A stretch of 64,000 nucleotides of DNA from Marinicauda algicola (GTDB taxonomy: Bacteria; Pseudomonadota; Alphaproteobacteria; Caulobacterales; Maricaulaceae). Made by a program: the position numbers and the translations under genes. Where the stretch lies: contig NZ_CP071057.1 in assembly GCF_017161425.1 (NCBI RefSeq), positions 1,426,001 to 1,490,000 of the forward strand, written 5' to 3'. Positions 46,258 through 54,983 of this stretch are shown in pieces (the stretch's first letter is position 1; each line of letters starts with the position of its first letter). The notes under the pieces are model-generated. The model did no database searches and was not told the DNA's origin. It saw nothing but the letters and a program-made list of their open reading frames with translations.

Positions 46258-48159
46258 TCACGCCAGCGCCTTTGCCGCATCCTCCTCGCGCCCGAGCGTC
46301 TCGAGCACCTTCGCCACGATGTGCTTGGCGTTGAGGCCGGCAGCCTCGTACATCTTCGAGGGGCTGTCCTGGTCCTGGAACGTGTCCGGCAGCGTCATCG
46401 TGCGGATCTTCACCCCGGAATCGAGCTGTCCGGTCTCGGCAAGGAAGTGCAGCACGAAGGCGCCGAAGCCGCCCCTCGCCCCCTCCTCGATCGTGATCAG
46501 CACCTCGTGCTCGCGCACCAGGCGGGTGATGAGGTCCTCGTCCAGCGGCTTGGCGAAGCGGGCATCGGCGACCGTCGCCGACAGGCCGTAGGCGGCGAGT
46601 TCGTCGGCGGCCTTCAGGCTCTCCTGCAAACGCCCGCCGAGCGAGAGGATCGCGACGGCACTGCCTTCGCGCAGGATGCGGCCCTTGCCGATCTCCAGCG
46701 GCTCGGTATCGTGCGGAATCTCCACGCCCGTGCCCTCCCCGCGCGGATAGCGGAAGGCGCTCGGCCCGTCCTCGATCAGGGTGGCGGTCTTGACCATGCG
46801 GGCAAGCTCGGCCTCGTCGCTGGCGGCCATCACCACCATCCCCGGCAGCATGCCGAGATAGCCGACATCGAACGAGCCGGCATGGGTCTGGCCGTCCGCG
46901 CCGACCAGGCCCGCCCGGTCGATCGCAAAGCGCACCGGCAGGGACTGGATCGCCACGTCGTGGACGACCTGGTCGTAGCCGCGCTGCAGGAAGGTGGAAT
47001 AGATCGCCGCAAAGGGCTTCATCCCCGCCGCCGCGAGCCCGGCCGCGAAGGTGACGGCGTGCTGCTCGGCGATGCCGACATCGAAGGCGCGGTCGGGAAA
47101 CCTCGCCGCGAACTTGTCGACACCCGTCCCGCCCGGCATGGCCGCGGTGATGGCGACGATGCTCTCGTCCCTCTCCGCCTCGCGGATCAGCGACTCGGCG
47201 AACACATTCGTGTAGCTCGGCGCGCCCTTGGCGGCCTTGGCCTGCTCGCCGGTGACGACGTTGAACTTCGAGACGCCGTGATACTTGTCGGCAGCCGCCT
47301 CGGCGGGCGCGTAGCCCTTGCCCTTCTGCGTGACGCAGTGGATCAGCACGGGCCCGTCGGCCTCGCGCACATTCCTGAGCACCGGCACGAGCGCGTTCAT
47401 GTCATGGCCGTCGACCGGGCCGATATAGCGGAAGCCCATCTCCTCGAAGAGCGTGCCGCCGGTGACCATGCCGCGCAGATATTCCTCGGCGCGGCGCGCC
47501 GCGCCCTCCACGCCCAGCGCCTTGGCGACGCCCTTGCCGAGCTTCCTGATGTCGCGATAGCTCTTGGACGAGACCTGGCGGGCGAAGTAGTGGCTCATCG
47601 CGCCGACCGGCGGGGCGATCGACATGTCGTTGTCATTGAGGATGACGACGAGATTCTTCTTCAGGTCGCCGGCATTGTTCATCGCCTCGTAGGCCATGCC
47701 CGCGCTCATCGAGCCGTCCCCGATCACCGCGACGACCTTGTAGTCCTCGCCCTTCAGGTCGCGCGCCACGGCAAAGCCGAGCGCGGCGGAAATCGAGGTG
47801 GAGGCATGCGCGGCGCCGAACGGGTCGTAGATGCTCTCGCTGCGCTTGGTGAAGCCGGACAGCCCCCCGCCCTGGCGCAGCGTGCGGATGCGGTCGCGCC
47901 GGCCGGTGAGGATCTTGTGGGGATAGCACTGGTGGCCGACATCCCAGATCAGGATGTCCTTCGGCGTCTCGAACACGTGGTGCAGCGCCACGGTCAGCTC
48001 GACCACGCCGAGCCCGGCGCCGAGATGGCCCCCGGTCACCGAGACCGCGTCGATCGTCTCGGCGCGCAGCTCGTCGGCGACCGCCTTCAGCGTCTCGATG
48101 TCGAGACCCTTGAGGTCGGCCGGCTCGTTGACACGATCGAGATGGGGGGTATCCACCAT
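46258..48159 (-). CDS. dxs: 1-deoxy-D-xylulose-5-phosphate synthase
   Basis: 633 aa, first enzyme of the MEP isoprenoid pathway. It uses thiamine diphosphate: motifs [18 protein letters not shown] and the [15 protein letters not shown] segment, and the catalytic His in [12 protein letters not shown]. The transketolase pyrimidine domain carries [13 protein letters not shown]. It follows ispA by 35 nt in a typical xseB-ispA-dxs arrangement. Confidence 0.97.
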
Positions 48160-48194: not shown

Positions 48195-49085
48195 TCAGGC
48201 GCGGCGTTGCAGCACGTAGTCGACTGCCGTCTCTAGCATATGGGCCTCCCTGCCGAACATGGCGAGATGCTCCTTGGCCTGTGCGGCGAGACGGCGCGCC
48301 CGGTCGCGCGCGCCCTCGATGCCCAGAATGGAGACGAATGTGGCCTTTCCCTGACGCTCGTCCTTGCCGGCGGTCTTGCCCAGTTCCTCGGTCGAGCCCT
48401 CGGCATCGAGAATGTCGTCGACGATCTGGTAGATGAGCCCGAGATCGTGGGCGAAGCCCTCCAGCGCGGTGCGTGCCTCCTTGCCCGCCTCGGTCAGGAT
48501 CACCGGAGCGGACACCGAGAAGGCGATGAGGGCGCCGGTCTTCATGCGTTGGGTCCGGGTGATGAGGCCGATATCGGCACTGCCTTCCTCGGTGAGGTAC
48601 ATGTCGAGCGCCTGGCCGCCGACCATGCCGCGCGCGCCGGCCGCCCGGGCGAGCTCGCCGACGAGCAGGGAGCGGACATAGCCGTTGGGATGGGTATCCG
48701 GCTCGGCGAGGATCTCGAAGGCGACCGCCTGCAGGGCGTCGCCGGCGAGCACAGCGGTCGCCTCGTCATAGGCGATGTGCACGGTCGGCCGGCCGCGGCG
48801 CAGATCGTCGTCGTCCATGCACGGCAGGTCGTCATGGATCAGCGAGTAGGAGTGGATGCATTCGATGGCGCACGAGATGCGCAGCAGCGCGCGCTCCTCC
48901 GCCCCGATCAGCCGGCCGGCCTGCAGGGCGAGGAAGGGGCGCACCCGCTTGCCCGGCCCGAGCGCGGCGTAGCGCATGGCCGAAGCCAGGCGCGCCTCCG
49001 GGCCGTCGGCGCGCGGCAGCAGCGCATCGAGCGCCACGGTCACCCGGTCGGCGGCTTCTTCCAGCTCTGTGAGAAACTGCTTCAT
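48195..49085 (-). CDS. ispA: Farnesyl/geranyl diphosphate synthase
   Basis: 296 aa. Makes farnesyl diphosphate from IPP. Both Asp-rich motifs are present: [14 protein letters not shown] (first) and DDILD (second); the [13 protein letters not shown] motif starts the fold. The ATG at 49085 has GGAAG 8 nt upstream; a TTG five codons earlier directly abuts a GGGAG and is an unlikely start. It precedes dxs by 35 nt. Confidence 0.95.
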
Positions 49086-49121: not shown

Positions 49122-49481
49122 CTAGCAGACACGGGCACCGTCCGGCGCCTCGCCGTCCGCACCCAGCAGGCGTACAGCCCCGCTCGCGTCGTGAACACCG
49201 AGCACCAGCACCTCGGACATGAACGGTCCGATCTGGCGCGGCGGAAAGTTCACCACGGCGAGCACCCGCCGGCCGGGCAGCTCCTCGAGCGCGTAGGCCT
49301 CGGTGATCTGCGCCGAGCTCTTCTTGCGGCCGACGCCCGGCCCGAAATCGATCACCAGCTTGTAGGCGGGCTTGCGCGCCTCGGGGAAGGCCTCGGCACT
49401 GAGGATCGTGCCGAGACGGATGTCGGCGCGGAAGAAGACCTCCGGATCGATCTCCGGCGCGGGCGGGTCGTGCGGGCTCAT
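49122..49481 (-). CDS. csaA: tRNA-binding-domain protein (CsaA-like)
   Basis: 119 aa OB-fold protein of the CsaA/TRBD type. Motifs: [40 protein letters not shown] and [23 protein letters not shown]. CsaA has chaperone or tRNA-binding activity in other bacteria. The ATG at 49481 overlaps the xseB stop by 4 nt, and it ends 36 nt before ispA, so it is cotranscribed with both. Confidence 0.9.
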
Positions 49482-49735
49482 CCCTGACGGTCGAGATCGG
49501 CCGGCTCGGTTCCCGGCTTGCCGTCGGGGCCGAACACGATCTTCTCCACCTTCAGCTCGGCATCCTTCAGGCGTGCCTCGCAATGGGCGCGCAGCGCGGC
49601 GCCGCGCTCGTAGATCGCGATCGACTGCTCGAGTTCGACCTCGCCGCTCTCCAGCTGCTGCACGATGCGCTCGAGCTCGGCCAGCGCCTTCTCGAAGCTC
49701 ATCTGACTGATGTCGTCGTGCGTCGTCGCGCTCAT
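49478..49735 (-). CDS. xseB: Exodeoxyribonuclease VII small subunit
   Basis: 85 aa. The compact helical pair [28 protein letters not shown] is characteristic, followed by the [13 protein letters not shown] segment. It binds the large subunit XseA to cut single-stranded DNA. It heads the xseB-csaA-ispA-dxs operon. Confidence 0.94.
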
Positions 49736-49798: not shown

Positions 49799-50410
49799 TC
49801 AACCGCGCGTCGCGTCCGAACCCGGATTTTTCACTTCGTAGCGGCGCCAGGACCAGTAGTAGTCGCCCCCGTCGCGCACGCAGCGCCAGCCCCGACGCTT
49901 CAGCGCCGGGCGCAGCATGCGGTTGAACCAGCCGTGGGCGAACAGCACGACCGGGCCGGACTGGGCTGCCTCGATCAGGATGTCGGCGGCCTGTTCGGCG
50001 CGGCGCTCCGCCTGGGAGCGGCTCTCCTTGCCGCGGGCGAAGCCGAGCCACCAGGAGCAGCGCGCCAGCACGCCCCAGTTTCGCGCCGGCAGCCGGCCGG
50101 GAAAGCGCGGCGGAGGCAGCGGGGCCTCCACGAAGACCGAACTCGTGTCGAACTCGCGGCCCCGGCAGGCGGCCTCGGCGGTCTCGATCGCACGCCGCAG
50201 GGTCGAGGCGTAGAGCACGCGCGCACCCTCCACCTCGCGAATCAGGGATTCCGGCGCGGCCTGGCCCGGCTTCAGCCCGGCAAGGTCGTAATCGGCCCAC
50301 CAGCGCTCATAGCCGCGCCAGTCCACCCGCTCGGCGCGGTTGGCATCGGGTTCCCCATGCCGGGCGATCGTGATGTAGCCCGGCCCGTTTTGACGGTTCG
50401 TCTCTGACAT
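49799..50410 (-). CDS. Histidine phosphatase family protein
   Basis: 203 aa. The ARHGEPDAN motif (phosphohistidine His18) and a later FAHGWFNRMLRP (second catalytic His) mark the phosphoglycerate-mutase-like fold. The TLRRAIETAEA segment carries the conserved Arg. Substrate unknown. Confidence 0.9.
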   Translation of the reverse strand: MSETNRQNGPGYITIARHGEPDANRAERVDWRGYERWWADYDLAGLKPGQAAPESLIREVEGARVLYASTLRRAIETAEAACRGREFDTSSVFVEAPLPPPRFPGRLPARNWGVLARCSWWLGFARGKESRSQAERRAEQAADILIEAAQSGPVVLFAHGWFNRMLRPALKRRGWRCVRDGGDYYWSWRRYEVKNPGSDATRG

Positions 50411-50472: not shown

Positions 50473-51390
50473 TCAGGCCGCGGCGATCGCGCGCAGGAAG
50501 CCGGTGAGCGACTTCTCAAGCGCGTCGATGTCGTATCCGCCCTCGAGCGTGCAGACAAGCCGGGCGTGCGCATGCTCTTTCGCGAGCGCGCCGAGACGCT
50601 CCCCGGCCCAGGCATAGTCCTCCTCGGTCAGGTCCAGCCCTGCCAGCGGGTCGTCGCGATGGCCGTCGAAGCCCGCCGAGACGAGCAGAAGGTCGGCGCG
50701 CAGGTCGGGAATGCGCGAGAAAATCTTCTCCTCCAGCGCCTCGCGCCAGGCCTTCGAGCCGGTCGCTCGCTCGACGGCGACGTTGACGATATTGTCCGCC
50801 TGATCGGCGTTCGAGCCGGTTCCGGGATAGATCCAGCCCTGGTGGATGGAGGCGAAGAACAGCCGGTCCTCGCGCTCGGCATAGGCCTGCGTCCCGTTGC
50901 CGTGATGCACGTCGAAATCGACGAGCGCGATGCGCGTCATCCCGTGCCCGGCGAAGCCGTGCGCGGCGGCGACCGCGATCTGGTTGAACAGGCAGAAGCC
51001 CATCGCGCGTTCCGGCTCGGCATGGTGGCCCGGCGGGCGGCAGGCCACGAACACGGCCTCCGCCTCGCCCGCGACCACCTTGTCCACGCCCTCCACGGCC
51101 GCCCCGCAGGCCGCGAGCGCGGCCTCGAGCGAACCCGGGCTCATCCAGGTGTCCGCATCGATGGAGGCGAGCCCGTCGGACGGGCCGGTCTCGAAGATCG
51201 ATTCGATATGGCGGCGCGTGTGGACGCGCGCGAGTTCCTCGCGCGTGGCCTGGCGGGGCTCGGCGGTCGCGAGGCCGTCGACGGACCGGATGGCGCGTTC
51301 GACCGCGCCGAGGCGCTCGGGGCGTTCGGGATGGCCTTCGGGCGGCTTGTGGCCGGCGGAGGCAGGGGATGTGTAGACGAGTGTTTTCAT
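50473..51390 (-). CDS. Histone-deacetylase-family amidohydrolase
   Basis: 305 aa, class II HDAC/acetylpolyamine amidohydrolase fold. Active-site motifs are all intact: GHPERPERL, RPPGHHAEPERAMGFCLFN (catalytic His pair), VDFDVHHGNGTQ (Zn Asp/His), SAGFDGHRDDPLAGL (Zn Asp) and LEGGYD. It removes acyl groups from lysine side chains or polyamines. Two SET-domain genes lie directly upstream on the same strand, 73 nt away. Confidence 0.95.
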   Translation of the reverse strand: MKTLVYTSPASAGHKPPEGHPERPERLGAVERAIRSVDGLATAEPRQATREELARVHTRRHIESIFETGPSDGLASIDADTWMSPGSLEAALAACGAAVEGVDKVVAGEAEAVFVACRPPGHHAEPERAMGFCLFNQIAVAAAHGFAGHGMTRIALVDFDVHHGNGTQAYAEREDRLFFASIHQGWIYPGTGSNADQADNIVNVAVERATGSKAWREALEEKIFSRIPDLRADLLLVSAGFDGHRDDPLAGLDLTEEDYAWAGERLGALAKEHAHARLVCTLEGGYDIDALEKSLTGFLRAIAAA

Positions 51391-51463
51391 GCCCGACTAA
51401 CTAGAGCGGAGCGCAAACGGATGCGAGCGCGTTCGTGCTCGCCTGCAGTACGCCAGCCGTGCG

Positions 51464-51892
51464 TCAGCGCCCTGCCCCGTTCGGGCTCGCACCCCGCGAT
51501 TGCCCGGCCTGCGCGATCGGAGGCAGGATCTCGAACTCCGGCTCGAACTCGGCATAGTTGCAGGTGATCTCCTCGCCCGGCTCGATATCGGCGATGGCGT
51601 AGCCGAGCTTGAGATCGCGGAAGTCGGTGTTCGGCGCCTCGCTGTGATTCATGTGCCGGCCATTGTCGGCATCCAGCACCAGGAAGGCCGCGTCGGTCGG
51701 GTGGCGATAGGTATAGCGCTCGACGAACCTGCGCGTGCTCTCGGGCAGGCCGGCGAGCTCGGCCTTCGCGATCAGCCGGTCGAATTCCGGGGCGAAGCGG
51801 TAGATGAGCTGACCCTTGGCGATCTTCTGGGCAGCGAACACGCCGACCCCCTCGATCGCGCTCGGCCCGATATAGGTGTCCACCAGGAGCAT
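51464..51892 (-). CDS. SET-domain protein lysine methyltransferase-like (copy A)
   Basis: 142 aa, a nearly bare SET domain. SAM-binding GxG is in IEGVGVFAAQKI, the pseudoknot pair NHSEAPN and the GEEITCNY motif are complete. It starts at the ATG at 51892. It follows the other SET gene by 11 nt and precedes the HDAC-like gene, all in one direction. Confidence 0.88.
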   Translation of the reverse strand: MLLVDTYIGPSAIEGVGVFAAQKIAKGQLIYRFAPEFDRLIAKAELAGLPESTRRFVERYTYRHPTDAAFLVLDADNGRHMNHSEAPNTDFRDLKLGYAIADIEPGEEITCNYAEFEPEFEILPPIAQAGQSRGASPNGAGR

Positions 51893-51903
51893 CGCCGCGG
51901 GCC

Positions 51904-52350
51904 CTACGCGCCCGCCGCGCTCTGCGAGGCGGACGCGTCCGCCTCGGCCGTGTCGCGGTCCTGGTGGGCGCCGCGGAAATGGCGCGCCAGGGACACCTCG
52001 TCCATGAAGTCGTGATAGTCGCAGGTCAGCTCCTCGCCTGCGGCGACGTCGCGCAACATGTAGCCGGTGCCGCCCACGCGGAACTCGATCGCGGGGGTGT
52101 CGGAATGGTTCATGAAGCGGCAGTGATCGCCGTCGAGCAGATAGGCCTGCAGGATCGAGTCGAAATAGGCGTAGCGGTCGAGAAACTGGCGGGTGGTCTC
52201 CGGCAGGGCCTCGCGCTCGGCCGGGGTGATGACCCGGTCGAAGCCCGGATCGAGCCGCCAGACGAGCGTGCCCTTGGCGAGCGGCCGGCCGGCGAACACG
52301 CCGAGCCCCTCGATCGCGCTGGGGCCGACATAGGTGTCCACGAGAAGCAT
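51904..52350 (-). CDS. SET-domain protein lysine methyltransferase-like (copy B)
   Basis: 148 aa. Strongly similar to copy A in its first 20 residues (MLLVDTY-GPSAIEG-GVFA) and overall layout. The GEELTCDY motif is intact, but in the NHSxxPN motif the last Asn is Ala (NHSDTPA). A short Ala/Asp-rich tail replaces the Pro-rich tail of copy A. It is the first gene of the SET-SET-HDAC array. Confidence 0.86.
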   Translation of the reverse strand: MLLVDTYVGPSAIEGLGVFAGRPLAKGTLVWRLDPGFDRVITPAEREALPETTRQFLDRYAYFDSILQAYLLDGDHCRFMNHSDTPAIEFRVGGTGYMLRDVAAGEELTCDYHDFMDEVSLARHFRGAHQDRDTAEADASASQSAAGA

Positions 52351-52546: not shown

Positions 52547-53152
52547 CTAGTGCAGGCCGGCCATGCCGGCGAACTCGGCGCGGGTCATGGCGAGCACGAC
52601 GGCGTTGGCCTCCGAGTTGAAGGCCGCGTCGCTCGCGCTGATCGCCCTCACCCGCGCATCGCCGTGCGCGTCGAGATCGCTGTGGACATAGATGCGGCCG
52701 CGGGCGCTCTCGTCCACATGCCCGACGCGGTAGCCGTCGCGGGTGTAGACATAGACGCGGGCATGGTCGTCGCCGCGATAGCTGCGCATGCGCGTGCTGG
52801 CGTAGGTGCGGGTGCGCACGCTCGGACTCTGCGCACGGGCGTGCACGCGGGTGCGCGAATAGGCCCGGGCGTTGCTCTCGAGCGCCGCGCGCAGTTCGGC
52901 ATTCGCATCGGCCATGGTGTGGGAGCTGAGCGAGCCGTCGAGATCGGAAACCAGGTCCGCGTCGAGCGCGAGGCCGGTGCGGCTGTCCACGACCGCGCCC
53001 GCCGTGCTGTCGAGCGTGGAATCAAGGCGTGTGGTGGAATTCAGCGACCCGTCGACCTGACCGGTCACTTCGCCGGTGATGTCGCCGACCTGCGCCGAAG
53101 CAGCGCCGCCGGCAAGCGCAAGCGGAAGAATCGTCGTCGCAAAGAGTCTCAT
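52547..53152 (-). CDS. Secreted hypothetical protein
   Basis: 201 aa. A signal peptide ends near residue 20 (GGAASA before QVGD). Ser/Thr/Asp-rich repeats follow (STLDSTAGAVVDS, DLVSDLDGSLS), then an Arg/Tyr-rich region (TRTYASTRMRSYRGDDHARVYVYTRDGYRVGHV). No family recognised. The start lies below an AT-rich upstream region with an operator-like palindrome. Confidence 0.6.
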   Translation of the reverse strand: MRLFATTILPLALAGGAASAQVGDITGEVTGQVDGSLNSTTRLDSTLDSTAGAVVDSRTGLALDADLVSDLDGSLSSHTMADANAELRAALESNARAYSRTRVHARAQSPSVRTRTYASTRMRSYRGDDHARVYVYTRDGYRVGHVDESARGRIYVHSDLDAHGDARVRAISASDAAFNSEANAVVLAMTRAEFAGMAGLH

Positions 53153-53406: not shown

Positions 53407-54114
53407 CTAGCTGACAATGAGGATCGCGCCGTATCCGGCCGCGCCCAGGGCGAAGGCCCAGAAGCGGCTCGCGCGTTCGGCCGGAAGCTCTTCCTTGATG
53501 ACGTTGAGCACGATGGCGCCGGCAAGCAGGGCGAACAGAAGCGCCGTCCAGAATTCGGGGATCGCGACCAGGAGCGATAGCGCCCAGCCCGCCGGCGCGG
53601 ACGCGGCCAGCACCCAGCGCCCCCGATCGAGCCAGGCCTGGCCGTGATGGGCGAAGAGCGCGCGGTCGTTGACCGTGAAGTGCAGTCCCATGGCGAGGCC
53701 GTAGAGGGCGAGACCGGCCGGCCCCGCCGCCGCCTCGGCCTCGATCAGATAGCCGATCAGGAAATTGTAGAGCGCGAAGGCGGCCAGATGCAGCCGAAAG
53801 GGCGCGCGCGCGCCTTCATGGCGGGCGGCGCGTTCCCGCGCGAGCCGCTCGAGCCCGTAGAACACCAAGAGCCCGGCGAGCGCAACCGTGAACAACCCCT
53901 CCTCGTGGGCGAGCGCGCTGCCCTCCAGCGCCGCCCCTTCCAGGGCGAGTTCGGGCAGAAGGTGGACGAAGACATAGGCGACCGAGACCCCGCCCGCGAG
54001 CGAGAGCCAGACGCTGCGCGGGGTGCGGTCGAGAACGGCCAGATACGGGCTGAGGACGTGAACCGTGCCGAGCAGCACGGCAAGGAGGCCGGCGAGGAGG
54101 ACCTCGCCGCTCAT
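53407..54114 (-). CDS. ZIP-like integral membrane protein
   Basis: 235 aa with seven or eight membrane helices. Motifs SVAYVFVHLLPELALEG (HxxPE), a GLHFTVNDRALF segment (His) and NVIKEELPAERAS fit the ZIP metal transporter layout, but the full HxxxE signature of helix 4/5 is incomplete, so metal transport is uncertain. The ATG at 54114 overlaps the SDR stop by 4 nt. Confidence 0.62.
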   Translation of the reverse strand: MSGEVLLAGLLAVLLGTVHVLSPYLAVLDRTPRSVWLSLAGGVSVAYVFVHLLPELALEGAALEGSALAHEEGLFTVALAGLLVFYGLERLARERAARHEGARAPFRLHLAAFALYNFLIGYLIEAEAAAGPAGLALYGLAMGLHFTVNDRALFAHHGQAWLDRGRWVLAASAPAGWALSLLVAIPEFWTALLFALLAGAIVLNVIKEELPAERASRFWAFALGAAGYGAILIVS

Positions 54115-54983
54115 TGCCCCAGCTGCACGTCCAGGATCTCCACGCCCTCGGGCTTCTCCGCATCGTCCGGCACGAAGAAGTCCGGCAGGAGCGGCTCGCC
54201 CGGGCTCATGTGGTACCGGTCGAAATCGGTGACGCCCTCGCTCATCAGGAAGGTGTCGTCGATGAGGAAGTTGCCGGTGAACTCGGATGCCTTCTTGTTG
54301 AACACCCGCCAGGCCACGTCGGCCAGGATGTCGGGCTTGCGGCAATTCCTGAACGCCTCCTCGCCGGCGAGCACGTTGGCGATGGCGGCGGTGGCGATCG
54401 CGGTGCGCGGCCATATGGCGTTGGCCGCGATCTTCCCCTTGAACTCGCCCGCCCAGCCCAGGATGCACAGGCTCATGCCGAACTTCGCGCTGGTATAGGC
54501 GACGTGCGGCGCGAACCATTTCTGCTTCATGTCGAGCGGGGGCGAAAGCGCGAGGATGTGCGGGTTCTCCGCCTGCTTCAGGTACGGCAGGCATTTCTGG
54601 GTGACGAGAAAGGTGCCGCGCGCATTGACCTGGTGCATCAGGTCCCAGCGCTTGATCGGCGTCTCCTCGGTGCCCCGCGGGAAGATGGCCGAGGCATTGT
54701 TCACCACGATGTCGATGCCGCCGAAATGGGAGGCCGCGGTCTTCACCGCGTGCTCGACATTCTCCTCCTCGCGGATGTCGCAGACGATCGGCAGCGCCTT
54801 GCCGCCGGCCTTCTCCACCGCCTCGGCGGCGGTGTGGATGGTGCCGGGAAGCTTGGGGTGCGGCTCCTCGGTCTTGGCGGCGATGACGATGTTCGCCCCG
54901 TCCCTCGCGCAGCGCTCGGCGATGGCCAGGCCGATGCCCCGGCTCGCCCCGGTGATGAAGATGGTCTTGCCTTCAAGGCTCAT
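54111..54983 (-). CDS. Short-chain dehydrogenase/reductase, HSDL2-like
   Basis: 290 aa. NAD(P)-binding TGASRGIG, the NNAS motif, Ser in LALSPPL and the catalytic YxxxK (YTSAK) are present. The ISAKTEEPHPKLPGTI-type insert after the second strand and the C-terminal ESTG-like part resemble HSDL2 proteins, without the SCP2 domain. Substrate unknown; fatty or steroid substrates are possible. It forms a two-gene unit with the ZIP-like gene. Confidence 0.88.
   Translation of the reverse strand: MSLEGKTIFITGASRGIGLAIAERCARDGANIVIAAKTEEPHPKLPGTIHTAAEAVEKAGGKALPIVCDIREEENVEHAVKTAASHFGGIDIVVNNASAIFPRGTEETPIKRWDLMHQVNARGTFLVTQKCLPYLKQAENPHILALSPPLDMKQKWFAPHVAYTSAKFGMSLCILGWAGEFKGKIAANAIWPRTAIATAAIANVLAGEEAFRNCRKPDILADVAWRVFNKKASEFTGNFLIDDTFLMSEGVTDFDRYHMSPGEPLLPDFFVPDDAEKPEGVEILDVQLGQ

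Follow-up and report, generated by a model that had tools for sequence, protein, structure and literature searches.

SET genes beside an HDAC-family gene in Maricaulaceae, a lineage-specific addition to an old alphaproteobacterial gene block

In Marinicauda algicola, two genes for stand-alone SET-domain proteins are found in front of a gene for an HDAC-fold enzyme, a pairing by which an old gene block has been extended specifically in the family Maricaulaceae and which is not an established system. The HDAC gene, together with xseB, ispA and dxs, is part of an old alphaproteobacterial block, and the SET gene is the lineage-specific occupant, in Maricaulaceae, of the front slot of this block. 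This slot lies between a short-chain dehydrogenase gene and HDAC, and the SET gene is doubled in M. algicola. Positions refer to the window, i.e., the whole stretch of 64,000 nucleotides that was analysed.

The three-gene array and its predicted products

The three genes are encoded on the minus strand in the order SETB (51904..52350), SETA (51464..51892) and HDAC (50473..51390), the first two specifying stand-alone SET-domain proteins of 148 and 142 aa, respectively, and the third a predicted HDAC-fold deacylase of 305 aa. The gaps are of 11 nt between SETB and SETA and of 73 nt between SETA and HDAC, in agreement with the same-strand row and the spacing claimed in an earlier note on this DNA. 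The SETA-HDAC gap (51391..51463) is without a match to a sigma-70-like promoter or a terminator. The consensus scan gave no sigma-70-like sites, which is of little weight for alphaproteobacterial promoters, and the terminator-like sites that it found are all outside the SET-HDAC gaps. Downstream, the array extends on this strand to a gene of the histidine phosphatase superfamily (49799..50410; PF00300, 2.2e-11), found at the same place in relatives, followed by xseB for the exodeoxyribonuclease VII small subunit (49478..49735; NF002139, TIGR01280), a gene for a CsaA/tRNA-binding protein (49122..49481; NF007495 and TIGR02222, above cut-off), ispA for farnesyl diphosphate synthase (48195..49085; NF045485, above cut-off) and, at the end of the block, dxs for 1-deoxy-D-xylulose-5-phosphate synthase (46258..48159; TIGR00204, 1.4e-242). 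On the other side, the short-chain dehydrogenase gene (54111..54983, minus strand; PF00106) is in relatives located directly before SET, or directly before HDAC where SET is absent. Two further genes separate it from the SET genes in M. algicola: one at 52547-53152 (minus strand), upstream of SETB, whose 201-aa product belongs to no family in Pfam or NCBIfam, and one at 53407-54114, without Pfam match.

Both SET proteins match the Pfam profile PF00856 with 43.9 bits each for a cut-off of 22.4 (3.5e-11 for SETA, 3.4e-11 for SETB). They share 50% identity across 133 residues and are the only PF00856 matches in the whole 3.42-Mb genome. The motifs E-G-x-G, N-H and C-x-Y are present in both and invariant among the aligned relatives, and the columns E14, G15, G17, N82, H83 and Y113 are invariant in alignments of 16 rows (two of which are the same window protein) and of 25 rows. 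We take G-x-G, NH and the C-terminal Tyr to be the cofactor and catalytic motifs. The predicted model of SETA (mean pLDDT 86.3) has a SET fold and superposes on solved SET domains, EZH2 and MLL1 among them, with Z values of 10-11.8 over approximately 110 residues. SETA and SETB are thus, by their sequences, members of the SET family with intact motifs and predicted methyltransferases.

The HDAC protein matches PF00850 with 269.7 bits for a cut-off of 27.9 (4.3e-80). Its nearest solved relatives are 5ji5 and HDAC6 (E ~1e-71), and it aligns over its full length with 5ji5, deposited as BuphA.10154.a.B1. In the alignment to HDAC6, the motifs GHH, DxHHGNG, GFDxHxDDP and EGGY are found, which presumably provide the zinc ligands and the catalytic Tyr, and the 'DPL' stretch of HDAC6 is retained; we assume that the Leu of this stretch marks lysine enzymes, whereas polyamine deacetylases have Glu there. 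Another gene of the HDAC family is located elsewhere in the M. algicola genome (G000:C1:1845377). With two PF00856 proteins and one PF00850 protein, all with their motifs whole, the enzyme families named in the earlier note are confirmed. Pairwise comparisons among relatives gave median dN/dS values of approximately 0.14 for SETA, 0.05-0.19 for SETB and 0.16-0.19 for HDAC, and these low values indicate purifying selection on all three.

The SET-HDAC junction in Maricaulaceae and in the wider class

Among the 137 Maricaulaceae genomes, SET (counted at E < 1e-40) was found in 39, HDAC in 72 and both in 36. When named genomes were searched with the SET alignment, the nearest relatives were those of Glycocaulis, Oceanicaulis and Alkalicaulis. 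SET and HDAC are joined in 33 of the 36 genomes that carry both, from six genera, SET being located 35-92 nt upstream of HDAC on the same strand (measured between match ends), and this recurrence indicates that the array is not due to chance. The co-occurrence analysis advised in the earlier note is favorable within this family, HDAC being present in 36/39 SET genomes compared with 72/137 overall (hypergeometric 8e-10, kinship ignored). An insertion splits the pair in two of the 36: in G107, SET and HDAC are separated over 904 nt by an opposite-strand gene, DJ-1/PfpI-like by eye, and in G126 (L192:3547-7484) a 3955-nt opposite-strand insertion lies between SETA and HDAC. Flotillin-like, NfeD-like and PspA-like genes were recognized by eye in the G126 insertion. 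In G017, counted among the 36, the two genes are on separate short contigs, making their placement impossible.

Each gene is also found alone. Half of the Maricaulaceae genomes that carry HDAC (36/72) are without a SET of this family, among them that of the sister species (G001), where the dehydrogenase gene is followed directly by HDAC with no SET between. SET without HDAC is limited to 3/39 genomes (G120, G082 and G091), and only in G120 (L191:4673-6007) is this SET in the slot, HDAC having been lost while SETA and the histidine phosphatase gene are still in place, so that G120 represents a natural SET-only genome. The count of 39 takes in G082 and G091, outside the slot, and G017, unplaced. 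Since SET and HDAC have each been lost without the other, they do not form an obligate two-enzyme machine. Upstream of SET, the dehydrogenase gene is found at 900 nt or less in 13 of 26 joined loci (window included), and in 13 of the 26 it was not found within the flank of approximately 1-1.5 kb. The SET-HDAC junction has survived rearrangement on the other side of SET in 13/26 loci.

Most Maricaulaceae genomes with SET have one such gene in the slot, of either the A-type or the B-type, and a tandem pair is found in M. algicola, G073 and G075, the second SET of G075 (= L090_6414) being a long branch. Before the trees were computed, identical proteins were removed (133 to 109 rows) and the Mesorhizobium rows were thinned to one in eight. 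A quick tree of 77 rows suggested separate arrivals of SETA and SETB; the careful tree, built from the same rows minus five (four long-branch and one mostly gaps), places both types, A and B, on the same side of a branch whose support, 56/78, is weak. In this 72-row tree, the B-type SETs form a clade (support 98/91) and SETB groups with the pre-HDAC SETs of other Maricaulaceae. The simplest reading would be a single SET arrival, then a tandem duplication and, in most lineages, the disappearance of one of the two copies, the tree demonstrating neither one nor two origins.

The gene order in Maricaulaceae is YbjQ-like (by eye), signal peptidase, short-chain dehydrogenase, SET where present, HDAC, histidine phosphatase, xseB, CsaA-like, ispA and dxs. 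Across the Alphaproteobacteria, HDAC was found in 228 of 385 genomes. Among 20 alphaproteobacterial HDAC loci sampled from the matches listed, many of them from single-contig genomes, xseB is beside HDAC in 17, generally accompanied by ispA and dxs, and SET is beside HDAC in none, from which we conclude that HDAC is a member of an old housekeeping block. For the class-wide adjacency test, SET matches with E up to 1e-25 and HDAC matches with E up to 1e-40 were considered, the M. algicola genome being excluded. Sixteen other genomes of the class have a strong SET match and 14 of these also have HDAC. What the earlier note gave as refuting its proposal, SET genes distant from HDAC in related genomes, is found outside Maricaulaceae, adjacency being observed in 0 of the 11 genomes with an HDAC position among the matches listed, a count taken without G452, G517 and G259 and with one of the two HDAC genes each for G322 and G495. 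HDAC is also missing from the flank examined in 70 of 80 named SET loci. Named loci and numbered genomes overlap, apparently as the same records, for L062/G015, L066/G029, L071/G033, L085/G091, L087/G082, L090/G075 and L135/G045, and their counts are therefore not independent.

Related SET genes were also observed in other positions. In Rhodomicrobium R_RK_3 (L081:6001-6426) and in the metagenome-assembled Hyphomicrobiaceae UBA7697 (L089:6001-6426), a related SET is located past the dxs of an HDAC-xseB-dxs block, in convergent orientation, which may be a coincidence. A-type SETs with 68-72% identity to SETA are present on contigs of metagenome-assembled genomes labelled Planctomycetes (L064:3195-3716, L065:5644-6426 and L067:5959-6471), with HDAC not nearby, owing to either horizontal transfer or mis-binning.

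A different neighbourhood, at L198:4996-9668 (minus strand), L199 and L209, comprises a pair of ATP-grasp genes, the gene for a GNAT-HDAC-GNAT fusion of 756 aa (with its N-terminal GNAT part assigned by eye) and a short SET gene. SET is directly downstream of the fusion in these three of the nine loci examined. It was not found beside the fusion in L208, L210 and L211, and L212, L213 and L214 have a shorter fusion match with no SET within the flank examined. Like the array of the window, this one is alphaproteobacterial and has an HDAC-fold gene directly adjoining a SET gene. It differs by an HDAC part approximately 32% identical to that of the window and fused to acetyltransferase domains, by a different SET located downstream of HDAC and by the presence of ATP-grasp ligases. 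It is a second, unrelated HDAC-SET pair, and no paper on this combination was found in the literature searched.

A putative acyl-to-methyl switch and competing explanations

The earlier note had proposed a protein-lysine modification module. The family motifs, the closeness and common direction of the genes and the junction recurring in six genera speak for it, as does the existence of the second HDAC-SET pair, whereas a fixed unit is not supported: xseB and not SET is the general neighbour of HDAC in the class, 36 of the 72 HDAC genomes are without SET and G120 is without HDAC. The best reading, to which we give a tentative preference, would be a facultative switch from acyl to methyl lysine on a cytoplasmic protein. 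Methylation of a lysine is blocked by an acyl group, which allows a deacylase to act ahead of a SET enzyme, and, the SET gene being located directly before the HDAC gene, the two enzymes may act in turn on the same proteins. The SET and HDAC genes would usually be co-transcribed, and both enzymes would be cytoplasmic and would modify lysines of endogenous proteins. HDAC would strip acetyl or other acyl groups from lysine and SETA or SETB would then methylate the freed lysines, thereby replacing acylation by a stable methyl mark, SETA and SETB possibly differing in the site or in the degree. Such a switch would be facultative, HDAC keeping its older job where SET is absent. No acetyltransferase gene is present in the HDAC block. 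The substrate considered possible in the earlier note was a DNA-binding or ribosomal protein. A histone substrate was considered and rejected: the M. algicola genome has 0 matches to the histone-fold profile PF00808 and to Hc1 (PF07432), and chromatin substrates of those kinds are therefore unlikely.

A close rival, which we hold to be almost as plausible as this switch, is that SET and HDAC are neighbours without a common substrate, SET having landed once before a well-expressed block in the ancestor of Maricaulaceae and having stayed there by descent. Gene order common to one family can indeed last through descent alone, and a single SET origin within Maricaulaceae fits the tree. This explanation also accounts for HDAC travelling class-wide with xseB (17/20 sampled), ispA and dxs without SET, for the loss of either gene singly and for the occurrence of SET relatives in other contexts (70/80 named loci without HDAC in the flank examined). 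It is weakened by the survival of the SET-HDAC junction despite rearrangement on the far side of SET (13/26 loci), by the rarity with which SET is kept without HDAC (3/39, in the slot only in G120) and by the existence of the unrelated HDAC-SET pair.

Another explanation, which we regard as improbable, places HDAC and the SETs on separate tasks within a metabolic block, HDAC acting on a small molecule (an amide such as an acetylated polyamine) and the SETs on, e.g., a translation protein. The isoprenoid genes ispA and dxs of the block are in agreement with it, as are the small-molecule amidohydrolases described among the cluster 1 bacterial deacylases in the available part of PMC11532494, but HDAC6 is among the closest solved relatives and its 'DPL' stretch is kept. 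Finally, secreted effectors directed at the chromatin of eukaryotic partners such as algae or protists, in the manner of LphD and RomA, are highly improbable, for although bacterial SET proteins in the literature are, according to the accessible portion of PMC10117894, mostly presented as acting on a host, HDAC is spread class-wide (228/385 genomes), mostly in a place beside xseB, and no signal peptide is evident by eye at the start of either SET.

Comparison with known systems

Stand-alone bacterial SET proteins are common, and Maricaulaceae represent a natural system for comparison, the SET-HDAC adjacency offering a way to test how SETs function in free-living bacteria. Close relatives with both genes, with HDAC alone and with SET alone (G120) could be compared for their methyl- and acyl-lysine marks. 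If the targets are shared, bacteria would erase and write lysine marks in a coupled manner on their own proteins. Such a home-grown deacetylate-then-methylate switch, similar to that of chromatin but acting on the own proteins of free-living bacteria, with a similar pairing arisen separately in the ATP-grasp array, seems to us rather unlikely. In the open-licence literature, no paper was found that describes SET and HDAC genes paired on the chromosome of a free-living bacterium.

By sequence, the HDAC of the window is closest to class II/HDAC6-like enzymes, and it has PF00850 in common with the bacterial classical Zn-dependent deacylases (HdaH, AcuC and ApaH; clusters 1-5) presented in the available part of PMC11532494, a text in which the terms 'SET domain', 'gene neighbo' and 'xseB' are, to that extent, all absent. 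The SETA model resembles the viral vSET (3kma; Z 10.9, 98 residues, rmsd 2.5), both being compact SET domains. According to the part of PMC10117894 that was accessible, the described stand-alone bacterial SETs are single genes, mostly acting on host histones or on chlamydial Hc1, whereas the SETs of the window are located beside HDAC and are doubled.

The closest functional parallel by description is found in Legionella pneumophila, where the HDAC LphD and the SET protein RomA provide a synergy of a bacterial deacetylase and a SET methyltransferase on one lysine. LphD removes the acetyl group of H3K14 and the full activity of RomA depends on LphD (PMC10104843, as far as its text was available), an action on H3K14 repeated in the accessible part of PMC11532494. 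Both kinds of enzymes and a conserved association (33/36 adjacent) are also observed within Maricaulaceae, and a mutual dependence of the LphD-RomA type is not, 36 genomes having HDAC alone and G120 having SET alone. LphD and RomA are, from the same partial sources, secreted para-effectors directed at H3K14 of the host histone, whereas the pair of the window, likened to them by description only, consists of genes that adjoin each other within a housekeeping block and belong to free-living bacteria.
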